Shown: piece after piece, positions 13,991 to 38,863 of the stretch
Layout of the letters: every line of letters begins with the position of its first letter
Numbering within the stretch: the first letter of the stretch is position 1
Made by a program: the position numbers and the translations under genes
Virus record (IMG/VR): IMGVR_UViG_3300021478_000006
Location: 1-45,380 of that record
Direction: 5' to 3' (one strand)
Length of the DNA stretch: 45,380 nucleotides
Origin: a virus
The notes under the pieces: model-generated
Seen by the model: the letters and a program-made list of their open reading frames with translations, nothing else
The model's database searches: none
What the model was told of the DNA's origin: nothing

Positions 13991-14347
13991 ATGAATGAAC
14001 CTGAAATCAAAAACGCCGTCATCGAATCGGCGGAACTTACCACCGGCGACCGAGGCTTCCTCGATTGCTGGCTAACATTGGACTATGGCGGGAGCGGTCA
14101 AGGCTTTGGAGGCTGGACGCTTTACCTGCCAAAATCATGGACGCATCACAAGCTCGAAAGCCCTGCGGGTCATTGGATATTCCGGTGCATGGAAGTTGCT
14201 GGCGTCGATAAGTTCTCCGATTTGAAAGGCAGAACCATCCGCGTCAAGTCAACCCATTCCGGCGTTCAAGCAATCGGCCATATCGTCAAGGACGACTGGT
14301 TTTGTCCAGAGGAAGATTTTAAAGCCTTGAGAAAGGAATCGAAATGA
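13991..14347 (+). CDS. conserved phage hypothetical protein
   Basis: A 118-aa protein starting at ATG 13991. Residues around 24-45 (LDCWLTLDYGGSGQGFGGW) are a recurring signature in small phage early proteins without known function. The C-terminus (VQAIGHIVKDDWFCPEEDF) also fits. It is coupled by ATGA to the recombinase gene. Confidence 0.62.
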   Translation: MNEPEIKNAVIESAELTTGDRGFLDCWLTLDYGGSGQGFGGWTLYLPKSWTHHKLESPAGHWIFRCMEVAGVDKFSDLKGRTIRVKSTHSGVQAIGHIVKDDWFCPEEDFKALRKESK

Positions 14348-15510
14348 ATGACAACGACGCAGAAATAACCGGAGCAGATGAAACAAGGCTCAGTATCACC
14401 ACGCGAGAGCTTGCGCCGGGCGGTTACGTCAAGCCTACGCCTCAACCTGCATCGGCACGCGCAACCGCTCGCGAGAATCGCGTCATAGAAATCAGCGCGG
14501 CCCTTGAACCTGCCTACGCGAAGGCCGGAACGCTTGAAATAACCGAGGATGAGATTGCCAAGCTCACCGCGCCTTTCGATGATAAGGACGTTGAGAAACG
14601 CCCGCATGATGGATTGTTCTACATCCCGCATATCCTCATATCCGACCGCCTCACACGCATCTTTGGACCCGGTAAATGGACAATGTTGCGCCGATGGGAG
14701 AACATCGAAAACAACACGATATTCGCTGAATGGGTTATGATTGTCCGGGGCGTTTATATCGGCGAATCGGTGGGAGCGCACCAATACCACCCGACCAACC
14801 CGAAACAGAACTACTCAGACGCCCTTGAAAGCACTCGTGGCGAGGCGTTACGGCGCATTGCGGGCAAATATCTATCATGCGGCTCACAGGTCTGGAGTCC
14901 GGCCTATTGCCGGGGTTTAAACGCCCCCAAAGCCTCTACAACAAATCAGAAGGTAGCAGAGCAGCCCCCGACGCCTCCAAAGCCCGTAGCGAGCATCCCA
15001 AGCGCAACGGCGGTGCCTGTAGAGGCTAAAGAGCTATTGCCAAAGATTGCCACGGCGGAAACCCTGAAATGGTTCCTGCAACGTATCGAGGAAACCACAC
15101 TTCAGAAGGAGTTCTGCGAGTATGCTTGCGAGAGGGGAATCATGCTAACATCGGAAACCCTAGAAGACTGGCCTTTGGACAAGGTTCCAACCTCGAAGCG
15201 GGCATTTGCGGCACTTCTTCATGACGTGGAGGAGTTTTGCATGGCCAAGCAGGGGCTTGCGCCCATCAATCAGGATGCCGGCCATCACGCAGCCGAATGG
15301 TATAATTTTCCGATGCCATACGGCAAGAATGCCGGAGTCATTTTGGGCGAATTGGAGAAAAACTACCTGTTCGGTTTGTGGGCAAATATGACCGTGGAAA
15401 CTGAATATAACGGCAAGCCCAAGAAAACCGAAACCATCGCCAAAGATACCAAGCTGCGCCAGATGCTTGATGAAGCTGGAAAACATTACGAGTTCACCAA
15501 GAAAGACTAA
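14344..15510 (+). CDS. Rad52/Mgm101-like single-strand annealing protein with DUF3820-like C-terminus
   Basis: A 388-aa protein. Residues about 95-190 (ILISDRLTRIFGPGKWTMLR, then SDALESTRGEALRRIAGKYL and SQVWSPAY) follow the Mgm101/Rad52 pattern, in which FG-GGW, a beta hairpin and an EA...C.S.AL helix form the DNA-binding core. A Pro/Ala-rich linker (about 200-225) leads to a C-terminal NFPMPYGKNAGVILGELEKN (about 321-340), like DUF3820, a short PFGKxKG motif found near exonucleases. The RecB-type exonuclease lies one gene on, so the two probably form an end-resecting recombination pair used in replication or repair. Confidence 0.68.
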   Translation: MNDNDAEITGADETRLSITTRELAPGGYVKPTPQPASARATARENRVIEISAALEPAYAKAGTLEITEDEIAKLTAPFDDKDVEKRPHDGLFYIPHILISDRLTRIFGPGKWTMLRRWENIENNTIFAEWVMIVRGVYIGESVGAHQYHPTNPKQNYSDALESTRGEALRRIAGKYLSCGSQVWSPAYCRGLNAPKASTTNQKVAEQPPTPPKPVASIPSATAVPVEAKELLPKIATAETLKWFLQRIEETTLQKEFCEYACERGIMLTSETLEDWPLDKVPTSKRAFAALLHDVEEFCMAKQGLAPINQDAGHHAAEWYNFPMPYGKNAGVILGELEKNYLFGLWANMTVETEYNGKPKKTETIAKDTKLRQMLDEAGKHYEFTKKD

Positions 15511-15515
15511 AAACC

Positions 15516-16142
15516 ATGAGTGATACAATCGCCAGAGTCCACCCAAACAGATTGAAGGGGCTTGAAATCGGTTGGGCAAATGCTTCGTTGCGGCGCAATC
15601 CATATAATCAACGAATATGTCCCATTTGTAGCAAGACGTTTGAAAGGCGAGGGAATCGTAAATCATCAGGCAAAAACCCTCCCTGCTGCTCGAAAGTATG
15701 TAAATCAGAATCGCAGAAATTAACAGCCTTGGGATTTACACACGCTCGCCGTCCCAAGGAGGGCATTAAACGCAATTGCAAAGTATGCCATTGCGAGTTT
15801 CAAAAACCAAAATCCCAAGACAGCCTTTATTGTTCATTGAAATGCAGGGTGTCCGACCCTACGGTATTTGACGCGATTAGCGGAGGTCGTCATTATAATT
15901 GGAAGGGTGGAATAACTCGCGGCAACCAAACCTTGCGCAAATCAAGAACCGCCAGACAATGGCGCAAGATAGTTTTGCTGCGCGATAAATCCACTTGTTT
16001 AATGTGCGGTTTCACCGCAACCAGATATATGAGGGCGCATCATGTATTGCCTTGGGCGAAATATCCTCAGTATCGTTTTCTGGTCGGAAATGGAATGACG
16101 CTTTGTTTTTGGTGCCACGAATACATCCACGAAAGAAATTAA
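15516..16142 (+). CDS. HNH homing-type endonuclease
   Basis: A 208-aa protein with three treble-clef-like Cys clusters (CPICSKTF near 35; CKVCHCEF; CLMCGFTA near 167) and a C-terminal HNH core: MRAHHVLPWAKYP, then GNGMTLCFWCHEYIHE. The first HH supplies the catalytic His. It sits between the annealing protein and its exonuclease, the kind of place homing genes invade. Its first residues (MSDTIARV) mimic the N-terminus of the following exonuclease (MTTTIARV); see findings. Confidence 0.82.
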   Translation: MSDTIARVHPNRLKGLEIGWANASLRRNPYNQRICPICSKTFERRGNRKSSGKNPPCCSKVCKSESQKLTALGFTHARRPKEGIKRNCKVCHCEFQKPKSQDSLYCSLKCRVSDPTVFDAISGGRHYNWKGGITRGNQTLRKSRTARQWRKIVLLRDKSTCLMCGFTATRYMRAHHVLPWAKYPQYRFLVGNGMTLCFWCHEYIHERN

Positions 16143-16143
16143 T

Positions 16144-16923
16144 ATGACAACAACCATTGCACGAGTTCAAAAGCCGGAAGCCTCGCATTATTATCTTCAA
16201 GACGGCACTCCGTTTTATGAAGTTGACTATGCCGACCCGCGAAAAGGAAAACGAAAAACCACATTGTCTGACGCTCGAAAGGTCAATGCACTTCCAAGCG
16301 TCACAACAATCTTATCATGCCTCAATCGCCCCGCCCTCACTTCATGGCTTATTGAGCAATCGGTATTGGCTGTCCTGACCGCGCCTCGAAATGAGGGAGA
16401 GGAACTAGACGCCTTTATCCAGCGAGTTTTGCATTCGGAAAAGCAGCAGGATTCAGAATCCCAAAAGGCTCGTGATTTGGGCACTGATGTTCACGCTCAA
16501 ATCGAATTGGCCATTACCGGCCAAGTTTGGGACAGGGCCTTTAAGGATTACGTTGAGCCTGCCATCAAAGCCTGTGAACAGTTCGGGGTATGCGATGCCT
16601 CTGAATTCGTCGTGGTGGGTCAAGGCTACGCTGGTAAGGTTGACGCCAAGTTTGCCAATGGCGACATTACTATAGTGGATTTTAAGACCACTAAAACACT
16701 CCCGAAAAAATCATACACCGAACATCGGTTGCAACTTGCGGCCTATGCGAAGGCATTGGGCAATACTGGCAATACTTACGTTCGCACGGCAAACATTTAC
16801 ATCAGCACCAAAGAGCCGGGCAAAATCGCCACCTGTATCAGCGATGAATGTGCAAGTGATTTTGAACGCGGTTTTAAACCCCTAATCGACTATTGGCAAT
16901 ACGCCAATGATTACAAGCCATGA
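16144..16923 (+). CDS. RecB/Cas4-like PD-(D/E)XK exonuclease
   Basis: A 259-aa protein. The catalytic core is GYAGKVDAKF (Asp about 167) and ITIVDFKTTK (Asp about 179, Lys about 181), followed by HRLQLAAYAKAL (QxxxY about 197-201). GTDVHAQIELAI near 113-124 supplies the conserved upstream His. Family members resect DNA 5' to 3'. Paired with the Rad52-like gene upstream it should feed single strands for annealing. ATG at 16144 directly follows the HNH stop; the next gene overlaps by ATGA. Confidence 0.85.
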   Translation: MTTTIARVQKPEASHYYLQDGTPFYEVDYADPRKGKRKTTLSDARKVNALPSVTTILSCLNRPALTSWLIEQSVLAVLTAPRNEGEELDAFIQRVLHSEKQQDSESQKARDLGTDVHAQIELAITGQVWDRAFKDYVEPAIKACEQFGVCDASEFVVVGQGYAGKVDAKFANGDITIVDFKTTKTLPKKSYTEHRLQLAAYAKALGNTGNTYVRTANIYISTKEPGKIATCISDECASDFERGFKPLIDYWQYANDYKP

Positions 16924-17597: not shown

Positions 17598-18092
17598 ATG
17601 GGACAACGAAAAGGATACAAACAAACGCCAGAGCATATTGCCAAACGAAAGAGATTTGGAAAACAGCATCACGCTTGGAAGGGAGACAATGCTTGCGTGA
17701 GAGCGGGCAGGACGAGGGCAAGAAGATTATTCCCGGTCATAGGGCCATGCGAAGAATGTGGAAATCCTCGTTCAGAGAGGCACCACAAAGATGGCAATAC
17801 GTTGAACAATCAGAAATCGAACATTGCCATTCTTTGCCGAAAATGCCATATGCGCGGAGACGGCAGGCTTGTAAAACTTGCAGCCACGGGAATAATCAAT
17901 CTCCCAAAAATGGTTTCACTGGCAGCAAAGGCAAGGTTACAAATTACACATTGTCCTAAAGGGCATCCCTATGCAGGAACCAATCTTTACATTAACCCAG
18001 CAGGCTCCAGATGTTGCAGAAAATGTCTTAACGATTACAAAAGACAACAAAGAGCCTTGGCCTCCGGCAGGAATCAAGTGGTATTACCATGA
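17598..18092 (+). CDS. HNH endonuclease with NUMOD3-like N-terminus
   Basis: A 164-aa protein. The N-terminus (GYKQTPEHIAKRKRFGKQHH) is a NUMOD3-type DNA-binding repeat. The core CEECGNPRSERHHKDGNTLN and ILCRKCHM is a canonical HNH with zinc Cys pairs and HH catalytic site. The C-terminus (CPKGHPYAGTNLYINPAGSR then CCRKC) is a further zinc element common in these proteins. Its 3' end overlaps the methyltransferase gene by 122 bases in another frame. Confidence 0.82.
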   Translation: MGQRKGYKQTPEHIAKRKRFGKQHHAWKGDNACVRAGRTRARRLFPVIGPCEECGNPRSERHHKDGNTLNNQKSNIAILCRKCHMRGDGRLVKLAATGIINLPKMVSLAAKARLQITHCPKGHPYAGTNLYINPAGSRCCRKCLNDYKRQQRALASGRNQVVLP

Positions 18093-18741
18093 TGAAAGTT
18101 GCGCCATAGCTCATGGAGATTGTACAACCATAATCCCTCATCTTCCAAAGGTTGATTTGGTGCTCACTGACCCGCCTTATGGGATTGACGGAGAACGTTC
18201 GGGAATGCGAATAAATAGAATATCTAAAGGCGCATATTTAGGAGAACATTTCGAGGATAATTCTGAATTTGTGACTAATGTTGCCGTGCCAGTTATTTCA
18301 GAATGTATAAAATCTCATGAGCGGGTTGTTCTCACGCCGGGTCAAGTTAATATTCACAAATATCCGCCGCCAGACCATATGGGCGCGTTCTTTTATCCTT
18401 CATGTTGTTCGGTCTCACGATGGGGAATGCGTTTATGGCAACCGATTTTCTACTATGGCAAAGACCCGTGGCAGGGAAAACTGAGGCCTGATGGAAAGAT
18501 TTGCTATGATTCCGACCGCGCAACCGAACATCCATGCCCAAAACCTATCAAAAGCTGGTCTTGGTTACTAGAAAGAACATCATTACATGGAGACGTTGTT
18601 TTAGACCCATTCATGGGTTCCGGCACCACATTACGAGCCGCCAAAGACCTTGGACGCCGCGCAATCGGCATTGAGATTGAGGAAAAATACTGCCAAATCG
18701 CCATCGAACGCCTCCGTCAAGGATTGCTAATTACCGCTTAA
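17971..18741 (+). CDS. DNA methyltransferase, beta-class N6A/N4C type
   Basis: A 256-aa frame. DLVLTDPPYGIDG near residues 62-74 is catalytic motif IV. VVLDPFMGSGTTLRAA near 210-225 is SAM motif I. Motif IV before motif I is the beta class. It probably methylates adenine or cytosine in a short site to protect phage DNA. Family proteins normally begin just before the YYHDES..I.HGDC segment (here residues about 38-52). The first 37 residues overlap the HNH gene, so this N-terminus may be non-native; no nearer in-frame start is evident. Confidence 0.8.
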   Translation: MQEPIFTLTQQAPDVAENVLTITKDNKEPWPPAGIKWYYHDESCAIAHGDCTTIIPHLPKVDLVLTDPPYGIDGERSGMRINRISKGAYLGEHFEDNSEFVTNVAVPVISECIKSHERVVLTPGQVNIHKYPPPDHMGAFFYPSCCSVSRWGMRLWQPIFYYGKDPWQGKLRPDGKICYDSDRATEHPCPKPIKSWSWLLERTSLHGDVVLDPFMGSGTTLRAAKDLGRRAIGIEIEEKYCQIAIERLRQGLLITA

Positions 18742-25744: not shown

Positions 25745-26043
25745 AGTCCACAGACCAAATCATCATTGAGAATCTTACAACGGAGCTTGAACAGCTAAAG
25801 AAAGAGCACCTCCACTTATGCTCAAGTTCGGCAGATGACCAAGATATTATAGAACATCTTGAGAAGGAGATTCAGTCTTCGAAAGATGTGCTTACGAATC
25901 TTGCGAATAGCGCGGCATGTCTTTATAGCGATACCACTGATGCCATGGGTGAGAGCTTGGGTGCATCACGGCAGATGTTAAGGGGCGACTTAAGGGCGGC
26001 TAATGAACTGCTCAACCCTGCATACAAGGAACGAAATGAGTGA
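25741..26043 (+). CDS. hypothetical coiled-coil protein
   Basis: A 100-aa protein. The first 60 residues are coiled coil (ENLTTELEQLKKEHLHLCSS; DIIEHLEKEIQSSKDVLTNL). Its stop lies inside the first codons of the next, transposon-split gene. Confidence 0.52.
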   Translation: MKSTDQIIIENLTTELEQLKKEHLHLCSSSADDQDIIEHLEKEIQSSKDVLTNLANSAACLYSDTTDAMGESLGASRQMLRGDLRAANELLNPAYKERNE

Positions 26044-26087
26044 TTGCGGCTGCATCGACAAAATACGGGAGAATTTACTTAAGCATT
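26036..26087 (+). pseudogene. 5' fragment of phage gene split by IS1595 insertion
   Basis: Begins at ATG 26036 (MSDCGCIDKIRENLLKH) and is cut after 26087, the last base of the target duplication. As it stands, the frame runs 10 codons into the transposon and stops at 26117-26119. Joined to 28191 onward it gives a 73-aa protein with an N-terminal CGC and a C-terminal CPFC zinc motif, a common small phage architecture. Confidence 0.88.
26080..26087. repeat. target-site duplication, left copy (TAAGCATT)
   Basis: TAAGCATT directly flanks the left inverted repeat and is repeated exactly at 28183-28190. Eight bases is the duplication length typical of IS1595-family transposition. Confidence 0.93.
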
Positions 26088-26130
26088 GGGAATTATATAC
26101 AAAACAACCCTTTAAATAGCGTCAAAAGCC

Positions 26131-26160
26131 TTGTTTTCAACGAGTTTCGTCCTCTACAGT
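26131..26160 (+). promoter_or_regulatory. candidate promoter of the passenger gene
   Basis: TTGTTT (26131-26136), 18-bp spacer, TACAGT (26155-26160), then 26 nt to ATG 26187, with AGGGG about 8 nt before the ATG. It lies inside the transposon, so the passenger can be expressed wherever the element lands. Confidence 0.4.
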
Positions 26161-26186
26161 TTCCAAAAACCAAAAGGGGCACGAAT

Positions 26187-27038
26187 ATGACCGTTTTAGC
26201 AGGAATAATATGTCCGGATGGAATTGTCATTGCGGCGGATAGTCTGGCGATGGAAACCGCCGCTGGGTCACATTCAGAAATTGATAAAATCGCCGTCATT
26301 AATTTCAGGGTTGACCAAGCCTTGGTAGCCCAATCTGGGTTGACCTCAATCACCAACAGGATTGTAGAATTAATTCAGGAACGGGCAAAAGGCGTCCAAA
26401 TCACGAGTCCGAAAATTGTTACTGATATTGTTGAGGATTCAATACGTGCCGCAAAAGTTAAGCTGGATGACGACCAAAAGAATTATGTGAGAGATTACGG
26501 CGGGGCACACCTCATGCTTGCATTTTATGCAAACGGAAAACCGCAACTTTACACGATAAACATTTACGGAAGCGGCATCGTTGACCCCCCCGAACCCACC
26601 GCAACCCTTGGAGTTGGGTCATATCTGGCAACCTATCTTTTGCGCGAATTGCATACGCCACATTCCGAAATCATACTGGCGATAGGGACGCTCATTTACA
26701 CGATAAATAAAGTGAAAGACACTACTCGCTATTGCGGAGGAAAAACAAATATCAAAGTTTTAACTCCCGTGCCGGTATCAGGATGGCATTCCTTGACCGT
26801 TGGAAAATCGACCAATGTGCCACCCATCACGATACAATTAACGGAGCGGAATTTGTCCAAACTGGACAAGCAAACCAGTGAAGCCAGAAACAAAAAGCTA
26901 AAAAGAATCTTGAATCAGGTGGGCAAAAAAGTGTGGCAACGCCATCTGAAACAAGTGGAAATCGAAGAAAAAGCCCGCGAAAAAGGCGAGATAATAAAGT
27001 TCATTTCTACACTTGACAACCCTAAGGATGTAGGGTAA
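26187..27038 (+). CDS. proteasome-beta-fold Ntn hydrolase (transposon passenger)
   Basis: A 283-aa protein. ATG 26187 has AGGGG upstream and puts Thr directly after Met. Methionine removal would expose Thr1. The sequence TVLAGIICPDGIVIAADS gives Asp17, and SHSEIDKIAVI gives Lys33: the three catalytic residues of proteasome beta subunits and HslV at exact spacing. VAQSGLTSITNRIVELIQ fits the loop and helix that follow. About 230 residues form the fold; the C-terminus (residues about 235-283) is basic and helical (RNKKLKRILNQVGKKVWQRH). Likely a self-compartmented threonine peptidase or amidase. No partner ATPase is encoded nearby; substrate unknown. An upstream start at 26040 would block Thr1 and is unlikely. 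Confidence 0.78.
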   Translation: MTVLAGIICPDGIVIAADSLAMETAAGSHSEIDKIAVINFRVDQALVAQSGLTSITNRIVELIQERAKGVQITSPKIVTDIVEDSIRAAKVKLDDDQKNYVRDYGGAHLMLAFYANGKPQLYTINIYGSGIVDPPEPTATLGVGSYLATYLLRELHTPHSEIILAIGTLIYTINKVKDTTRYCGGKTNIKVLTPVPVSGWHSLTVGKSTNVPPITIQLTERNLSKLDKQTSEARNKKLKRILNQVGKKVWQRHLKQVEIEEKAREKGEIIKFISTLDNPKDVG

Positions 27039-27041
27039 TCT
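27013..27041 (+). promoter_or_regulatory. transposase promoter, near-leaderless type
   Basis: TTGACA (27013-27018, perfect), 17-bp spacer, TAATCT (27036-27041), then 9 nt to ATG 27051. It overlaps the last codons of the passenger gene. Confidence 0.65.
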
Positions 27042-27050
27042 GCTACCAGA

Positions 27051-27977
27051 ATGAAAAACGCATTTGCCTTTAAAACGCTGGCCGAGTTTCTTGAACACTT
27101 CAAAGATGAGGAAACGTGCCGTGAACATTTCACGGCCATCCGCTTTGCCAATGGCGAATATTGTCCGCATTGCGGGCATGCCAAGATTCACAAGTTTTCA
27201 GATGGCAAGCGGTATCGTTGCGCCTCTTGCAAACAAGACTTTCGTATCCAGACCGGCACAGTGTTTGGGGAGAGCAAGTTGCCTCTAAAAAAGTGGTTCA
27301 TTGCGATTTACCTGCTGTCCACGAGCAACAAGGGCATTTCCTCCGTGCAACTTGCCAAGCAAGTCGGGGTGACGCAAAAGACCGGATGGTTTATGGACCA
27401 TCGGATTCGTTCCGCGATGAAGCAGAACAAGGGGCAGCTTTTCGGCACTATTGAATGCGATGAAACCTACGTTGGCGGCAAGGAGGGGAACAAGCATAAG
27501 GACAAGAAAAACAAAACATCTCGTGGCAGGAACGCTCAAACAAAGAAGCCCGTTTTTGGAATGAGAAGCCGAGACGGTGAAGTGAGGGCAATGGCCGTTC
27601 CGAACTGCAAAGAAAAACTGATTATGGGAATCATCCAAGAGAACGTCGCGCAGGGAACAACGGTTCATACCGACGAAATGCTGTCCTATCGCAACCTGCC
27701 TTTGGCTGGTTTCTCTCATTTTACCATCCGCCACGGATTGAGGGAGTATGCAAGGGGTGAATGTCACACAAACAGCATCGAATCGTTCTGGGCGTTGTTT
27801 AAGCGCGGTTATCATGGTATTTATCATTGGATGAGTCCGAAGCACATGCAGCGTTACGTTGACGAAAGCGTGTTCCGCGTGAATCGCCGGGAAGAACCGA
27901 TGAACAGCATCTTTGCGGAACTGGTGGCGAACATGGCGAAGGGCCAACAACTCCCCTACAAAGAATTGACCGCATGA
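27051..27977 (+). CDS. IS1595-family transposase (ISXO2-like DDE)
   Basis: A 308-aa protein, full length for the family. An N-terminal zinc ribbon has CPHCGH at 38-43 and CASC at 57-60. A helix-turn-helix follows (ISSVQLAKQVGVTQKTGWFM). The catalytic acids lie in TIECDETYVGG (Asp137), TVHTDEMLSY (Asp208) and HTNSIESFWALFKRG (Glu244), the ISXO2-like pattern. No frameshift or stop, so it appears active. It cuts and joins the GGGAATT ends of the element. Confidence 0.93.
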   Translation: MKNAFAFKTLAEFLEHFKDEETCREHFTAIRFANGEYCPHCGHAKIHKFSDGKRYRCASCKQDFRIQTGTVFGESKLPLKKWFIAIYLLSTSNKGISSVQLAKQVGVTQKTGWFMDHRIRSAMKQNKGQLFGTIECDETYVGGKEGNKHKDKKNKTSRGRNAQTKKPVFGMRSRDGEVRAMAVPNCKEKLIMGIIQENVAQGTTVHTDEMLSYRNLPLAGFSHFTIRHGLREYARGECHTNSIESFWALFKRGYHGIYHWMSPKHMQRYVDESVFRVNRREEPMNSIFAELVANMAKGQQLPYKELTA

Positions 27978-28126
27978 GCAGACCGAAAAAATTACATCCC
28001 CCTTTAAAAGGAGATTTCAACAGCATTCTCAAGGCGATTGCCGCTGGGACTGGCAAGGTCAAACCGCCAGTGAAGAAGGCTAAGACAGTGCAAGCTATTG
28101 CCAAGCCAGTGACCCCCAAGAAATGA
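27974..28126 (+). CDS. small basic accessory ORF of the transposon
   Basis: A 50-aa frame overlapping the transposase stop by ATGA. Lys/Pro-rich (MSRPKKLHPPLKGDFNSILK, then VKPPVKKAKTVQ). Small basic ORFs are often found after IS1595 transposases; the function is unknown. Translation is probably coupled to the transposase. Confidence 0.6.
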   Translation: MSRPKKLHPPLKGDFNSILKAIAAGTGKVKPPVKKAKTVQAIAKPVTPKK

Positions 28127-28168
28127 GCCATGCCCCCGCCACGCGAAAGAAACGGCCAAGGGTAATAA

Positions 28169-28182
28169 TGTATATAATTCCC
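28169..28182. repeat. right terminal inverted repeat of the transposon
   Basis: TGTATATAATTCCC is the exact reverse complement of GGGAATTATATACA at 26088-26101. Next to it lies the right target duplication TAAGCATT (28183-28190). Beyond the 14 bases the two ends diverge. Confidence 0.93.
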
Positions 28183-28357
28183 TAAGCATTATCAGGCTGA
28201 CGAAATCGAACTTGATCTTGGGCAATTCATCAACCTCTCCACCGGCAAAACCACGACCAGTTATCAACCGCTGAGGTTCAAAGCGATTAAAGGTAAAAAG
28301 AAAACCAAAGGGCATGTGGACTTTAAATATTGCCCATTCTGCAAGAAGGAATTATGA
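28183..28357 (+). pseudogene. 3' fragment of phage gene split by IS1595 insertion
   Basis: Bases 28183-28190 are the right target duplication; from 28191 the phage frame resumes (QADEIELDLGQFINLS) and ends with HVDFKYCPFCKKEL at TGA 28355-28357. The C-terminal CPFC pairs with the N-terminal CGC of the 5' fragment. The stop overlaps the next gene by ATGA, as in the rest of the operon. The fragment has no start of its own. Confidence 0.88.
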
Positions 28358-32631: not shown

Positions 32632-34331
32632 CGAAATATCACTCCAAATATGGGACTTGAATTTGTAGGGTCGTTGAAGGTGTTGTTAGAAAACCGCCAT
32701 CCGGCCGGAATGTTTGTAATGCTTATCGATGCGACATTGGTGGGTTCAAAGCCGGGCCATGGACAATTTCCAAACCATGATGGCTTGGAGCCATAATAAT
32801 AACTGTTCTGAGGCATATGGTCAGAAATGCCAGCATCATAAACCACCACATTGCTCAGATAATTGTAATTGTCATGCATGATGGCGGTTGAAATCACATT
32901 CGGGTCATATTGGTCTAGGAAAACATTGGTGTCATAGCTACTGCTTCCTATGAATGGATAACCCATTCTATAAATGGTATTGCTTCCAAAATTTGCGTTG
33001 GTTGGAAGATAGTTGCCCCATGTTATTCCACTCTTTCCAAGGACATTGGCGACTATATTATTGCTGAATGAATGGGAATCCGGCGACACGCATGCCCTCT
33101 GCGCTGTGATTACGTTGGTATCCTCATTACCAGACCACCAGTTTCGGAATAACGTGTTTAGAGCGCAGGAGCCGAAGTAAAAGTCCGACTGCCATTTCTG
33201 GCCAACATTGCCTTCATAAAGGTTAAACATGGGAAACCCTATATGATTGGCTGATATAGCGGGTGAGCTATAGTCCCCGTTCATCTCATTTCCAATGTAA
33301 TTGTAGGATATTACGCTGCCACAAGTGCTTGAGTTAATCTGATAGGGCGCATTCAAATGGTCTAGCACATTGTTCTCCAGCAACAGGAATGAAGACTTCT
33401 GCGCTATGACAGAGTTGTCGGTATAAAACTGGTCGTTTCTTACATTTCTTATATCGCAATGCGTCATCTGGCATTGAACGCTAGCATAAAAGAAAATAGG
33501 GTCGCTTACCGTCCTCTGTGTTTCGACATGGTCAACCCAAGATTGCTGTGACGATTGGAAATAAATAAACTGGCCCATGCCTCCGCTATCATTGGTTATC
33601 GTGAATCCCTCAAACCCAACAAGTTTTGCCTTCTCATTGAAAAATACCTTCTGTATTTGAGGCGTTCGGGTGAACGATGCGATTAATGGAGGCCAGAACG
33701 TTATAGATGTTCCTGAAACGGCGGTGACCCTTACAGCCTGAGACATTATTCGCGCATTGGGATTGTCAACGTTCGTATTGCCGCCGTTCTGTGAACCAAC
33801 CGAAATAACAAATACCCCGTCATCCAGTTGGTTAATCATTCCTATATCGTCAACATTGAAATCCTGATTCAGTCCAACGGTTATATTAGATGAGCCTAAA
33901 GTCGCACCTGACAGAATGCTTTCGATTTCCTCAATATCAGCCCCTCCAACCCGGAAACCGCCAATATCGCCAGTATGAACATGGAATATGGTCTTTTCCT
34001 CGCCATCCCCACGCAATGTCCATTGGTGGGGAAGTGATATTCCCACGCTGGACGCCATTCGATAGGTTGCGGTCGGAGCATACACAACCTGACCATTCGG
34101 ACAATCGGTAAGAGCCTGCAATATCTTACCTGAATCATCCGTTGAATCATCCCCTGCACAATGATAAAGCGTGTTGGTTGTGGTAAGAAGATTGACGAAT
34201 ATGGTGTTCCTAGTCGTAATTCCACCGGGAACGCCAGCCAATGACCAGTTGGCTGTTCTGGCCACAGGAATAATATCCGATTGTCCCATACAACTGAGGC
34301 AACAGAATAGAAATATGGCGCAGAGTTTCAT
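32628..34331 (-). CDS. pectate-lyase-like beta-helix spike protein with signal peptide
   Basis: A 567-aa protein starting at ATG 34329-34331, which overlaps the fibre stop. Residues 1-17 (MKLCAIFLFCCLSCMGQ) look like a Sec signal peptide. DDSTDDSGKILQALTDCPNG then TYRMASSVGISLPHQWTLRG is the start of a pectate-lyase/GH28-type right-handed beta-helix, followed by many short strand repeats. Such folds are typical of tailspikes that bind or cut polysaccharide. A signal peptide is unexpected for a virion protein, so a secreted depolymerase is also possible. Confidence 0.7.
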   Translation of the reverse strand: MKLCAIFLFCCLSCMGQSDIIPVARTANWSLAGVPGGITTRNTIFVNLLTTTNTLYHCAGDDSTDDSGKILQALTDCPNGQVVYAPTATYRMASSVGISLPHQWTLRGDGEEKTIFHVHTGDIGGFRVGGADIEEIESILSGATLGSSNITVGLNQDFNVDDIGMINQLDDGVFVISVGSQNGGNTNVDNPNARIMSQAVRVTAVSGTSITFWPPLIASFTRTPQIQKVFFNEKAKLVGFEGFTITNDSGGMGQFIYFQSSQQSWVDHVETQRTVSDPIFFYASVQCQMTHCDIRNVRNDQFYTDNSVIAQKSSFLLLENNVLDHLNAPYQINSSTCGSVISYNYIGNEMNGDYSSPAISANHIGFPMFNLYEGNVGQKWQSDFYFGSCALNTLFRNWWSGNEDTNVITAQRACVSPDSHSFSNNIVANVLGKSGITWGNYLPTNANFGSNTIYRMGYPFIGSSSYDTNVFLDQYDPNVISTAIMHDNYNYLSNVVVYDAGISDHMPQNSYYYGSKPSWFGNCPWPGFEPTNVASISITNIPAGWRFSNNTFNDPTNSSPIFGVIFR

Positions 34332-37300
34332 TATTCGACATGAAAAGTTCCAGACAATCCAGAAGCCGCCGTAATAGATGCTCCAGCTTGCATGTGAATA
34401 CATTGAGAATCGTTAACCAAAGTTGTATTGGTAAAATACGCAGCTCCTGAACCGTCAAAATTGGTATAGGTAACTGCCGTGCCTTTTACGTAAGCATAAC
34501 CATTAACCCCAGTGGAATTTGTATATCCAGTTGAGGTTATTTGCGCGGTAGTAGTAGCTGTTGTTTTTAATCCCGTTGTGGCTGTTACCTTTAATGCCGT
34601 TACTAGATTTCCAGAATTATCAAGAGTCATTAATGCCGTGTTGTTTGCCTGATTGTTCCACTGAAACCCATTTGCGCCTGCGCCGGAAAAGGTAAATGGA
34701 GCGGCGGCATTTAGAAAAATAGATGGCCCGGCAACTGCTCCTAGTGTTAAAACGGAGCCACTTCCGGCTACAAAAGTATTCTGGCCAGTAAACGCATTAT
34801 TTGCGTTTATTAGCGGCACATTTGCGCTCAGTTGGGCGTCTTTAATTGAAATTCCGTTGGTGCTTCCTTGCGACAATTGGACAACGATGTTCGTTGTTCC
34901 GTTTGTAACAAAAACGTAAGAATTGCTCAACCCATAAGGGTTTTGAGGAAAAAGAACCGCACAATTAGACGAGTTTGTAAAGGTCAATGCCGCGAAGTTG
35001 GTTATATTCCACCCCATCATGCAGTTGTTAAAAGAAAGACCCTGAGAGTTTGTTACAAACATGTTCGGAGGTAAGAAAGCACAACTCGAAAACATTGCAC
35101 CAAAAGAATTATTGCTACAAGTGAGGGCGAAACTTCCGCCGTGATTAAACGCACAGGCTGAAAAACTGCAATGTCCTGGGTTGCCGCCGCCGGTTCCATC
35201 TAAACACAAGTCTGTTCCGTTGTTTCTTGAGAAATTACAGGACGAGAAAGTATTGTTGCCTCCGAATTCAATGCATCCGAAATGGTTTTCCGTGCATTGC
35301 ATGCCCGTAAAAGATATATATTCCGCGCCACCATCAACTTTCAAACCAGTCCAATTAAATTCCATCTGGCAATCATTTATTTTAGCGAGAGGGTCAACAT
35401 TTGCACCAACAGAGAACACTTCCATTCCTTTTCCGAAGCCATGAATATAAAGTCCCCTGACACACCAGTTAGGTTGGGCGGCATTCTGAACATAAATGCC
35501 CGTGCGCCCATCATCTGAACCGGGAATTGTGAGTGTATTTCCGCCGTCAATTTCCAATCCGCTGATTGAAATGTTAGTAGAAGTAGAATCCAGCGTTATC
35601 CCGACTCCAGACGACCCAGATGAAAATAAAAGCTTTGAACCTATCATTCCGAATAGCATTTCGTTCGTGAACATCGTGAATGGAGACACCTTGTAGGTTT
35701 TCATAGGCAACATCACAGGCAAACCGAGTTGTGCTCCGGCCCATAAAGCATTCGTGATGGCGGTGGTGTCGTCAGTTACGCCATTGCCAACAGCGTTGTA
35801 TGGGGTCTTGGTTGCATCTAACCAAGCACCGGCAGCGTTTGTTAATCCAGAGGCATTTCCAGTGGAATTGCCAGTACCTCCTGATATTAAAGGTATTACT
35901 GATATACTGGAAAACCCACCACCCGTTGCCGCGTTGCTAGCGAACAGGAATGCGCCATCAGAGGGTTGAGTGATATTGGATAACACACCGGCATTTCCGA
36001 CATAAACAAGTCGGTTAGTGGTGAGGCTGGTATCAATCAAAGCTCCCGTTGTTGTCTTATTTGTTGAGGAAACGTTTCCATTGGCATCGACTACAAGAAT
36101 ATTTCCAGCATGATTGGTATTAAACAGATATTGAAGATTGTTGGTAATAACTGTGTTGTTCTCAAAAGAAGTCCCGCTTACATTCAGATTTGTGGCCGTG
36201 AAATAGACTGGAGTATTGAATACGTTGCTGGTTCCACCAAAAGTATTCTGACCGTTCAATCTTGGAATATTGGTTGATAGAGATGAATCTGATATTCCGC
36301 CATCGATATTTGCCGTTCCATGGACATTCAGGGCATAAGAACCGGGATTATTGGTATTGATTCCGACACCATTTCCGGCATGGATAAGAAACTGATTTGT
36401 CGATGTGGTGGAGAATATATTACTGCTATCATTCCATACGAATGAGTTTGTATTGGTAACGTTCGCATTCTCCCCCGCCGCAATCGAAAAGTCGGCGTTG
36501 CTGATATAATTTGTTCCACCGCCAAGAATGGACGAATAATTGGCATTAGTTATGGCGTTATTCAATCCACCATTAATAATATCCCAACGATATGGGCCAC
36601 CACTGGATACCGAAGAAGTGATGATATTAGATTCGCCGCCAGCTATAACCGATTCATCAACAAAAGCCTTCCCCGCAGTTCCAAAAGAGTTGTTCTGTCC
36701 TCCGGCTATTACATCTTGGTCGGATGCATTTATCATGGAATTAATCTCACCGGACAATATCCCTGAGAACACGATGGTATTATCCATGGAGTTATCAATA
36801 TTACCGGCAAGGAAGTTCTCAGCAGGAACACCACCGCCTGAATAGAAATGGCCTCCAGTGGTAACGCCAGCATTACCAGCCTCGAAAGTTGCCGATGTAT
36901 TTACGGTTAGGCTGGTTCCAACCGTTGCCGATGAAGCATTGGCCATGACACCAGCCGATGATACTGAAAACTCGCCGATACCACTGGAATTGGTTATGCT
37001 GATTGCATTTCCTCCAGTCGAAAGCATGTTCAGTGTGCCGTTGATTCTGGCATTGTTTGAAGCTATGACTGAACCACCGGAAAGAATGTTCGATGCCGCA
37101 TAAATATTGCTTCCTCCGGGAAGATTAAGATTGCCCACGGCAAGACCGCCTTGTGCTCCAACGGCCAATAATGGATTGGATGCGCTATCCTGAATCTGTA
37201 GAAGGTTGGTTTTGTTCGCGGCAATACTAGTAATGGACAATCCGACCGTATTAGTGGCCGACTGGGTAATGCTGGTATTGGTTCCGAGTCCATTCAGATT

Positions 37301-38863
37301 TCCTATAGCGTTCGTAGCCGAACCGCCGCCAGAACTATTTATCGTGGCCGTCAATCCGCTTACCGTTATCGTCACACCAGAACCAGCTACGGGTATCAGG
37401 GCCGATGGAAGAACATTTGTCGCCACGGTTCCGCTGGTAATCTGAGAACCATTCAAGGCGGTCAATGCGGAGCCATTTCCATTAGTGCGAAGCTCTTGAG
37501 CCGGTATATCGGCATCAATCAATACATTCGTTCCAGTAACAATCCCCTTGGAATTAACCGTTACCTTGGTTGCAATTCCCGGTGTCACCGCGCTTGTTGG
37601 TAAATCTGCATTTAACAAAGCATTTGTTCCAGTGACAATACCCTGAGCATTTACAGTCCCTTTCGTGAACGAACCGGCAGAAACACCGCTGGCGGGAAGG
37701 TCAGAATTGGCTAGAACATTAGTTGATATGACACGTCCCTTGGTATCATAAGTCACCTTGGTAGCCGTTCCAGAAGCTATGACTCCAACAAGGGAAGGAG
37801 ATGGAAAGTTATTAGTAAGGTCTCCAGATGCTATCCCGGATGGAGGTGCAGTATTTACGGTGATTGTTGGAGTAAGTCCAGATATTGAAACAGTTACATT
37901 TGCCCCTCCCAATGGCATAATAGAAGGAGGAATAACATTGGTGGATATTTTTCCTCCGCTTACTATATTAGTAGCATTTACCACTACATTGGAAACAAGA
38001 GAGCCATCACCTTCAAATGCTGCTGCCGACATATCACCTGTTGCCCCAACAAGAGAATTTCCTATTCTTACAGTATGTCCCAATGGGCCTATAGTCATTC
38101 CGGAAGGGTCCGTAGCAATCTGATTGGTTGCGCCTCCAACATTTGTATTTCCTATAAGATTTAAAAGAAGTGTGCTTGTTCCGGTATTAGAAATACTCTG
38201 GGAAGAAGCATTGGCGCTATTCAAAATAACCCCCGTCAATCCGGAACCGCTACCAATGAATGATGCATTACTAATCGTGTTGCCAGCTCCATTAACATTA
38301 TTCGTCAAAGGCGTCTGCGGAACGCCACCTGAGCCGAACAAGTTTGTAATATTAGTCCCATTCAACTGTAATGCCCCAGTGAAATTATTGGTAAGCGTGA
38401 AAGTCTGGTTTGAGTTAAGGGCTGCAAAACCATTCAACACTGCTTGTGACAAATACCTTAAATCTGCTGTAGCCGTTGACCATGCCACAAGTGCGGAGGG
38501 AAATGTTGCCGTTGAATTGGCGACGGTAAGAAAGCTGGCATTGGTATTTCCTGATGCGCCGGGAGGAACATAGATTGTGAATATGCTCTGAGAAGGAGGC
38601 GCAAGGATGGTTGCCTGATATAACAAATTGCTGACCACGTTTGTCATGGTAAATGCACCGGTATTATCCGTTACATATACCATGAAATCCCCTACCACCT
38701 GAGACGAGTTGTTAAGTGTGGGGGCAGTGAATGATTGGACTTTTACAGTCCTATTAGTAACGGGATTCTGGCTGAAATCGCTAAGGTTCCATAGCACATT
38801 GATGGGTGCGGCCTCTATACCAAGGCAGACCATCAACAAAAGTATTGTAATCAGTTTCTTCAT
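34331..38863 (-). CDS. giant fibre-like repeat protein with signal peptide
   Basis: A 1510-aa protein, a tenth of the genome. Residues 1-18 (MKKLITILLLMVCLGIEA) are a signal peptide. The body is extremely Asn/Thr/Ser/Gly-rich. A repeat of the type TKVTVNSKGIVTGTNVL, then a DADIPAQEL-like end, recurs three times near residues 365-455. A GGQNNS..., GGESNI..., GGLNNA..., GGGTNY... series near 720-790 resembles head repeats of trimeric adhesins. NGVTDDTTAITNALWAGAQL near 1050 begins a pectate-lyase-like beta helix. Likely the main host-contact fibre. Export before assembly would be odd; see findings. Confidence 0.7.
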   Translation of the reverse strand: MKKLITILLLMVCLGIEAAPINVLWNLSDFSQNPVTNRTVKVQSFTAPTLNNSSQVVGDFMVYVTDNTGAFTMTNVVSNLLYQATILAPPSQSIFTIYVPPGASGNTNASFLTVANSTATFPSALVAWSTATADLRYLSQAVLNGFAALNSNQTFTLTNNFTGALQLNGTNITNLFGSGGVPQTPLTNNVNGAGNTISNASFIGSGSGLTGVILNSANASSQSISNTGTSTLLLNLIGNTNVGGATNQIATDPSGMTIGPLGHTVRIGNSLVGATGDMSAAAFEGDGSLVSNVVVNATNIVSGGKISTNVIPPSIMPLGGANVTVSISGLTPTITVNTAPPSGIASGDLTNNFPSPSLVGVIASGTATKVTYDTKGRVISTNVLANSDLPASGVSAGSFTKGTVNAQGIVTGTNALLNADLPTSAVTPGIATKVTVNSKGIVTGTNVLIDADIPAQELRTNGNGSALTALNGSQITSGTVATNVLPSALIPVAGSGVTITVSGLTATINSSGGGSATNAIGNLNGLGTNTSITQSATNTVGLSITSIAANKTNLLQIQDSASNPLLAVGAQGGLAVGNLNLPGGSNIYAASNILSGGSVIASNNARINGTLNMLSTGGNAISITNSSGIGEFSVSSAGVMANASSATVGTSLTVNTSATFEAGNAGVTTGGHFYSGGGVPAENFLAGNIDNSMDNTIVFSGILSGEINSMINASDQDVIAGGQNNSFGTAGKAFVDESVIAGGESNIITSSVSSGGPYRWDIINGGLNNAITNANYSSILGGGTNYISNADFSIAAGENANVTNTNSFVWNDSSNIFSTTSTNQFLIHAGNGVGINTNNPGSYALNVHGTANIDGGISDSSLSTNIPRLNGQNTFGGTSNVFNTPVYFTATNLNVSGTSFENNTVITNNLQYLFNTNHAGNILVVDANGNVSSTNKTTTGALIDTSLTTNRLVYVGNAGVLSNITQPSDGAFLFASNAATGGGFSSISVIPLISGGTGNSTGNASGLTNAAGAWLDATKTPYNAVGNGVTDDTTAITNALWAGAQLGLPVMLPMKTYKVSPFTMFTNEMLFGMIGSKLLFSSGSSGVGITLDSTSTNISISGLEIDGGNTLTIPGSDDGRTGIYVQNAAQPNWCVRGLYIHGFGKGMEVFSVGANVDPLAKINDCQMEFNWTGLKVDGGAEYISFTGMQCTENHFGCIEFGGNNTFSSCNFSRNNGTDLCLDGTGGGNPGHCSFSACAFNHGGSFALTCSNNSFGAMFSSCAFLPPNMFVTNSQGLSFNNCMMGWNITNFAALTFTNSSNCAVLFPQNPYGLSNSYVFVTNGTTNIVVQLSQGSTNGISIKDAQLSANVPLINANNAFTGQNTFVAGSGSVLTLGAVAGPSIFLNAAAPFTFSGAGANGFQWNNQANNTALMTLDNSGNLVTALKVTATTGLKTTATTTAQITSTGYTNSTGVNGYAYVKGTAVTYTNFDGSGAAYFTNTTLVNDSQCIHMQAGASITAASGLSGTFHVE

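Follow-up and report, generated by a model that had tools for sequence, protein, structure and literature searches.

Passenger genes are reportedly known in the IS1595 family of transposons, and the 2009 paper on the family is said to describe them. The family is divided into the groups ISPna2, ISH4, IS1016, IS1595, ISSod11, ISNwi and ISNha5 (PMC8101967). Proteasome-like proteins are a second described system of relevance here. Their conserved centre consists of Thr1, Asp17, Lys33 and Gly47, and homologues such as PPH, AAH and others are borne on phages (Fuchs, Alva and Lupas, 2021; PMC8665760). No gene context that would point to a function is described in that paper, and transposons are not mentioned in it. 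A third system is formed by the SocA/Panacea antitoxins, for which no proteasome, Ntn or peptidase toxin is named (PMC8832971).

The element analysed here brings the first two together. The window, by which we mean the whole stretch of viral DNA that was analysed (45,380 nucleotides), contains an element that shares with IS1595-family insertion sequences the DDE_Tnp_IS1595 domain, the N-terminal zinc ribbon, an 8-bp A+T-rich duplication and GGG ends, but differs from them in carrying a proteasome-like gene and a micro-ORF that is coupled to the transposase by an ATGA overlap. The passenger has the Thr1/Asp17/Lys33/Gly47 centre of the described proteasome-like homologues PPH and AAH (PMC8665760), and like them lacks a propeptide and is phage-borne, whereas it differs in being the cargo of a transposon, and in having relatives with a constant partner gene. 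The kind of transposon is known, and the proteasome-like cargo is new. The preliminary description recognised no transposon with such a cargo, and none was found in the literature searched, the original 2009 paper on the family lying outside that search.

The element and the phage that carries it

The element (26088-28182) is 2,095 bp long. Its terminal inverted repeats GGGAATTATATACA are exact over 14 bp (26088-26101 on the + strand and 28169-28182 on the - strand), and belong to longer inverted arms of 30 nt with 80% identity, with an inner ACCC block present at both ends. From the sequence and a pattern search, the left repeat, GGGAATTATATACA-nnnnn-ACCC, is placed at 26088-26110 (+) and the right repeat at 28160-28182 (-). 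The fuller end pattern GGGANYTATATACANNNNNACCC, when up to three mismatches are allowed, has two matches in the window, which fall exactly at the two element ends, compared to a mean of 0.13 in the shuffled window. There is one copy of the element in the window, flanked on the left (26080-26087) and on the right (28183-28190) by the target-site duplication TAAGCATT. The perfect 14-bp ends and the 8-bp duplication on both sides are therefore exactly as first described.

In silico removal of the element and one TAAGCATT joins 26036-26087 to 28191-28357 (both +), which are the 5' and 3' parts of a small phage gene, the latter ending in KYCPFCKKEL. The rebuilt frame is open over 72 codons and carries C-x-C and YCPFC motifs. 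No clear full-length relative of this 72-aa target protein was found, and only its VDFKYCPFC tail matches a viral protein (VDFKYCPFCGRKL). A small phage gene is interrupted by the insertion, which appears to be recent, because the duplication and the transposase are both intact and the target frame can be rebuilt.

The window has a 127-bp direct terminal repeat and encodes portal, terminase and head-protease genes, and is for these reasons very probably a complete phage genome, in keeping with the earlier statement that the element sits inside a phage. The window is also a metagenomic viral contig, for which chance repeats or misassembly have to be considered. We regard such an artefact as extremely improbable: none of the 100 shuffles has two end matches, the duplication is exact, the empty site restores the frame, the same ends occur with duplications in many genomes, and the terminal repeat closes the contig. 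Elsewhere in the window, genes for a Mgm101-like recombinase, an HNH nuclease and a PD-(D/E)XK exonuclease, in this order (14344-16923), form a probable phage recombination module. The phage also encodes an N6/N4 DNA methylase (17971-18741; Pfam 1.1e-24), and a protein of 1,510 aa among the late genes (34331-38863, - strand), probably a tail or fibre protein, which matches neither a PHROG nor, significantly, a Pfam family.

The transposase (27051-27977, + strand, 308 aa) was assigned using Pfam, NCBIfam and its residues, and consists of a zinc ribbon and a DDE domain. It matches Pfam DDE_Tnp_IS1595 (ISXO2-like, PF12762) with 1.5e-44 and NCBIfam IS1595 (NF033547) with 4e-62, above the cut-off. 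The N-terminal zinc ribbon (PF12760, 1e-11) has Cys38, Cys41, Cys57 and Cys60 in place, and the catalytic Asp137, Asp208 and Glu244 are all present, so that the profiles and the residues agree with the intact IS1595-family transposase of the preliminary description. The closest relatives are on a phage contig (L003, 78% over 144 aa) and a viral contig (L024, 73% over 150 aa). The transposases of these two phage contigs (L003:3117-4697 and L024:8437-11006) are internally shortened, with ends and second frame conserved. The best bacterial relatives come from Methylacidiphilales (L039, 63%) and Verrucomicrobia (L041, 61%), the latter being the group in which the preliminary description had advised a search. 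Taking all these features together, the anatomy of the element as described (an IS1595 unit transposon with its ends, duplication, transposase and passenger) is as good as certain.

The four closest elements have in common, from about 27000 of the window on, a TTGACA box, an inverted repeat, the transposase and the micro-ORF, while their 5' slots have unrelated contents. By comparison of these elements, the start of the conserved core in the window is placed at 26999-27050 (+), before the transposase, with the TTGACA box at 27013-27018 and the inverted repeat ACCCTA...TAGGGT at 27019-27036. The repeat is imperfect in L041. Its ACCCT resembles the inner block of the element ends, and for this reason it is possible that the transposase represses its own promoter through the repeat. 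In L003, a frame of 281 aa before the transposase runs into the same promoter, and is at most a candidate gene.

The proteasome-like passenger and its relatives

The passenger gene (26187-27038, + strand) encodes a protein of 283 aa, identified as a proteasome-like Ntn hydrolase by Pfam and alignments. A ribosome-binding-site-like sequence AAAAGGGG (26172-26179, +) is located 7 nt upstream of its start. A start at the GTG at 26040 was rejected: this codon is outside the element, and the start at 26187 has both AAAAGGGG upstream and Thr after the Met. The Pfam Proteasome profile (PF00227) is matched over nearly its whole length with 6e-13 and 49.3 bits, against a cut-off of 22.4, and the second full gene that had been reported inside the ends, with a proteasome-type Ntn fold, is upheld. 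In alignments with mature beta-7 chains, Thr2 falls on residue 1, Asp18 and Lys34 occupy the positions of Asp17 and Lys33, and Gly51 that of Gly47; T2, D18, K34 and G51 are invariant in seven sequences. A profile of seven relatives compared with the PDB retrieves mostly proteasome beta chains, again with Thr2 on chain residue 1. A structure model made from the single sequence was useless and was discarded. The model made from five sequences has a mean pLDDT of 51.8 (about 60 over residues 1-180), with a helix-rich, low-confidence region at residues 200-283, and all 50 PDB matches listed for it are proteasome structures. This low-confidence model supports the proteasome fold, short of proving it. 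Overall, we are highly confident that the passenger has this fold.

Active proteasome beta subunits carry a Ser129/Asp166/Ser169 cluster. In the passenger, the Ser129 position is occupied by Val (in Gly-Val-Gly) and the Asp166/Ser169 region aligns poorly, which makes hydrolase activity uncertain, and we consider an active hydrolase to be only somewhat more probable than not. The missing cluster weakens the case for activity and not for kinship, because the centre conserved among proteasome-like proteins comprises Thr1, Asp17, Lys33 and Gly47 (PMC8665760). The passenger would act as an N-terminal threonine hydrolase with no need of a propeptide, in which removal of the Met would expose Thr1.

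Close relatives of the passenger were sought in genome, viral, phage and plasmid collections, using small genome samples, and none was found. Nothing credible came from exact peptides searched against the genome and viral collections, or from tblastn against plasmids and phages up to E 10, and a profile that included a mouse PSMB7 fragment found nothing. There was no match in 388 Verrucomicrobiota, 199 Planctomycetota and 349 Pseudomonadota genomes, and just a weak partial match in Bacteroidota genomes. PADLOC gave no match for the passenger.

Six full-length distant relatives were found, in Acidobacteriota (L157), Chloroflexota (L158) and four viral contigs (L160, L161, L164 and L165). They are 20-25% identical over the aligned length, and the L157 match is 29-31% (6.8e-8). 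A profile built from these six alone, with the window left out, scores the window passenger at 44 bits. Three orphan PF00227 proteins from Verrucomicrobiota (L144, L145, L149) were considered as close kin and rejected, having no phmmer match and at most 26 bits, compared to these 44. A further candidate, L167, was set aside as an N-terminally truncated remnant with no partner gene. All six full-length relatives are located outside IS1595 ends; end-like matches in L164 have two mismatches and the wrong orientation, and are taken as chance.

In all six cases, the hydrolase gene is directly preceded, or overlapped by a few bases, by a winged-helix-like gene of about 144 aa that belongs to one family. 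The resulting two-gene modules of partner and hydrolase are at L157:9830-11077, L158:1112-2348, L160:4571-5765, L161:1777-2981, L164:4555-5843 and L165:4399-5756. The partner protein has the C-terminal tail P(E/D/Q)..(N/K)S(V/I)F, for example PEMKxNSVF. The partners in L157 and L158 match PADLOC PDC-M19A (4e-12 and 3e-14). The L157 partner also matches Pfam SocA_Panacea (PF13274) with 0.017 and 16.5 bits, below the cut-off of 25.7, while the L158 partner has no PF13274 match. The partner thus resembles SocA/Panacea systems (PMC8832971) in being small and winged-helix-like, and in its PDC-M19A and weak SocA_Panacea matches, but it differs from them in staying below the Pfam cut-off, and the gene was not found in the window. 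The neighbours of the modules were inspected by eye. L157 has tyrosine recombinase-like genes in its vicinity, and L164 an IS1-like transposase; L165 comes directly after a terminase-like large subunit, L161 before a portal-like protein, and L160 is in a stretch of structural genes.

Related elements, their cargo and the micro-ORF

The end pattern by itself retrieved 35 viral stretches, several of them with both ends. Among the loci examined, 45 non-redundant elements, the one in the window included, show both ends together with an exact 8-bp duplication. Their duplications are 89% A+T, and their lengths range from 1.45 to 5.96 kb, with a median of 2,669 bp. Related elements were found in Verrucomicrobia, Planctomycetes, Patescibacteria, Bacteroidota, Proteobacteria, Chloroflexi, Acidobacteria and others, and the group that shares these ends and this transposase is large and pan-bacterial. 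One viral contig has a 303-bp end pair with an exact 8-bp duplication and no transposase (L011:907-1209), like a miniature element. In L027 (1060-2294; 1,235 bp), IS1595-type ends surround a frame that looks TnpB-like by eye, with no exact duplication.

The cargo was analysed using 60 proteins from duplication-verified elements (at most one mismatch), and 60 proteins flanking the same elements were used as a control. Pfam domains in the cargo proteins include MethyltransfD12, N6_N4_Mtase, PDDEXK_11, HNH, BglII, MvaI, GmrSD, Vsr, M78/IrrE and reverse transcriptase, whereas those in the flanking proteins are mostly housekeeping domains. PADLOC gave 378 model matches among the cargo proteins and 8 among the flanking proteins; these are tallies of models rather than genes, and are inflated by overlapping methylase models. 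It is concluded that the cargo of the sister elements is dominated by restriction-modification genes, which are strongly enriched relative to the flanking genes. Examples among the duplication-verified elements are L037, L039, L040, L043 and L046. It is possible that restriction-modification cargo in IS1595 has been reported in earlier literature. The window element has the same ends and a coupled second frame as the elements with restriction-modification cargo (L009, L013, L024, L037, L040, L043, L046). It differs in that their cargo is a methylase or nuclease, mostly 3' of the transposase, whereas in the window it is peptidase-like and 5'. Neither the passenger nor the partner gene is present at about 100 other IS1595 loci examined.

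The second frame in the window is a micro-ORF of 50 aa (27974-28126, +) with the motif F-N-S-I-L, identified from the sequence and by comparison of elements. Its start overlaps the transposase stop as ATGA. The same overlap is present in three of the four closest elements, and an ATGA also joins the transposase stop to the next frame in 45 of 91 loci. The motif [FL]-[DEGNSA]-[EDNSQ]-[AVI]-[LVIM], which was picked after the data were seen, occurs within the first 40 residues in 34 of the 91 loci, compared to 0 of 60 flanking proteins and an expectation of 1.6 from shuffles. In related elements, micro-ORFs of this kind, which have a motif like F-[DE]-E-[AV]-L, stand alone or, often, form the N-terminal part of cargo enzymes. 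In L009, L024, L040, L043, L046 and L049, such a peptide begins a DNA methylase of the D12 type (fused frames at L009:1686-2570, L040:1892-2773 and L043:5912-6793, and also in L024), the assignment for single loci being partly by eye. The window micro-ORF stands alone and is not fused.

Origin and possible role of the passenger

The transposase would bind the GGGA..TATATACA/ACCC ends and carry all the DNA that they enclose to A+T-rich targets of 8 bp. The stop codon and the last 13 or so codons of the passenger lie within the conserved promoter segment of the core, and a frame that runs into core sequence in this way is best explained by the capture of a gene on the 5' side of the transposase. 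Illegitimate recombination immediately before the promoter would have brought the passenger into the variable slot, which extends from the left end to this promoter, since the final codons of the passenger are core-element sequence. The hydrolase gene would have been captured, perhaps from a phage-linked module and without its partner.

The preliminary description went further, and proposed that the element mobilises the gene between bacteria and phages. The data stop short of this: the passenger was seen with these ends once, and no further copy was found in the genome, viral, phage and plasmid collections searched. It had also named, as an observation that would speak against the proposal, homologues always occurring without the transposase and ends. 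This is what was found for the distant homologues, all of which are outside IS1595; the element boundaries in the window are unaffected by it. Transfer of the passenger between bacteria and phages is plausible, and is put no higher because the passenger within IS1595 ends is a single case and its distant relatives lie outside such ends.

The sister elements mostly carry anti-phage DNA-modification or DNA-cutting genes, and for this reason the passenger may serve as a tool, or as a weapon, in the conflict between phage and bacterium, where it would cut one or a few proteins in phage-host or element-element conflict. The pairing of its distant phage relatives with a winged-helix regulator-like protein is also in line with this. 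The fact that there is a single element with this cargo, that hydrolase activity is uncertain, that the partner is absent and that PADLOC has no match for the passenger counts against it. A role in conflict or defence is therefore suggested tentatively, with somewhat less than even confidence, and the same holds for the statement as a whole, of an IS1595 unit transposon in a phage gene with a proteasome-like passenger serving in conflict. Being inside a phage, the passenger could serve the phage rather than the host.

The genomic positions of the relatives also fit a gene for phage fitness, acting in host takeover or particle maturation, which came from another phage and has no defence role, the transposon being as described. 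Viral contigs account for four of the six full-length relatives, three of which are near terminase-like (L165), portal-like (L161) and structural genes (L160), and phage-borne proteasome homologues (PPH, AAH and others) are already described (PMC8665760). However, their neighbour is a small winged-helix/Panacea-like protein (PADLOC PDC-M19A), of a kind met more typically in regulation or in toxin-antitoxin pairs than in particles, and the cargo of the sister elements is mostly restriction-modification; we consider this explanation rather unlikely.

The same rather low probability is given to a passenger caught by chance, neutral or decaying, with selection only on the transposase core. Such a passenger would account for a 3' end that reads into the transposase promoter, the missing partner gene, the Val at the Ser129 position and the single occurrence, but not so readily for 283 open codons with a plausible ribosome site and four core catalytic positions kept. 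Finally, the position of the passenger between the end and the transposase promoter, with a stop codon that overlaps the promoter inverted repeat, might indicate that it serves the transposon, for example by controlling the rate of transposition through cleavage of the transposase or the micro-ORF product. This is very unlikely, given that the gene is in no other element examined and that its relatives are outside IS1595.

The conflict reading, extended to the family, would make the IS1595 lineage a swappable shuttle for small conflict genes, mostly restriction-modification, with the transposase-coupled N-terminal peptide as a common adaptor. In the window, this shuttle would have taken up an effector of a new class, a hydrolase with the proteasome fold, which elsewhere is paired with a Panacea-like regulator in a phage-borne module of two genes that has not been described before. 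We offer this as a speculation, which is rather unlikely to hold.

For many bacterial and phage proteasome-like proteins, neither a function nor a telling gene neighbourhood is known (PMC8665760), and the window and the relatives of its passenger give two contexts that can be tested. The results suggest that small IS1595 elements, which can insert into phage genomes, carry conflict genes more often than has been counted. The micro-ORF motif and the pair of hydrolase and partner may turn out to be more valuable than the observation first made.
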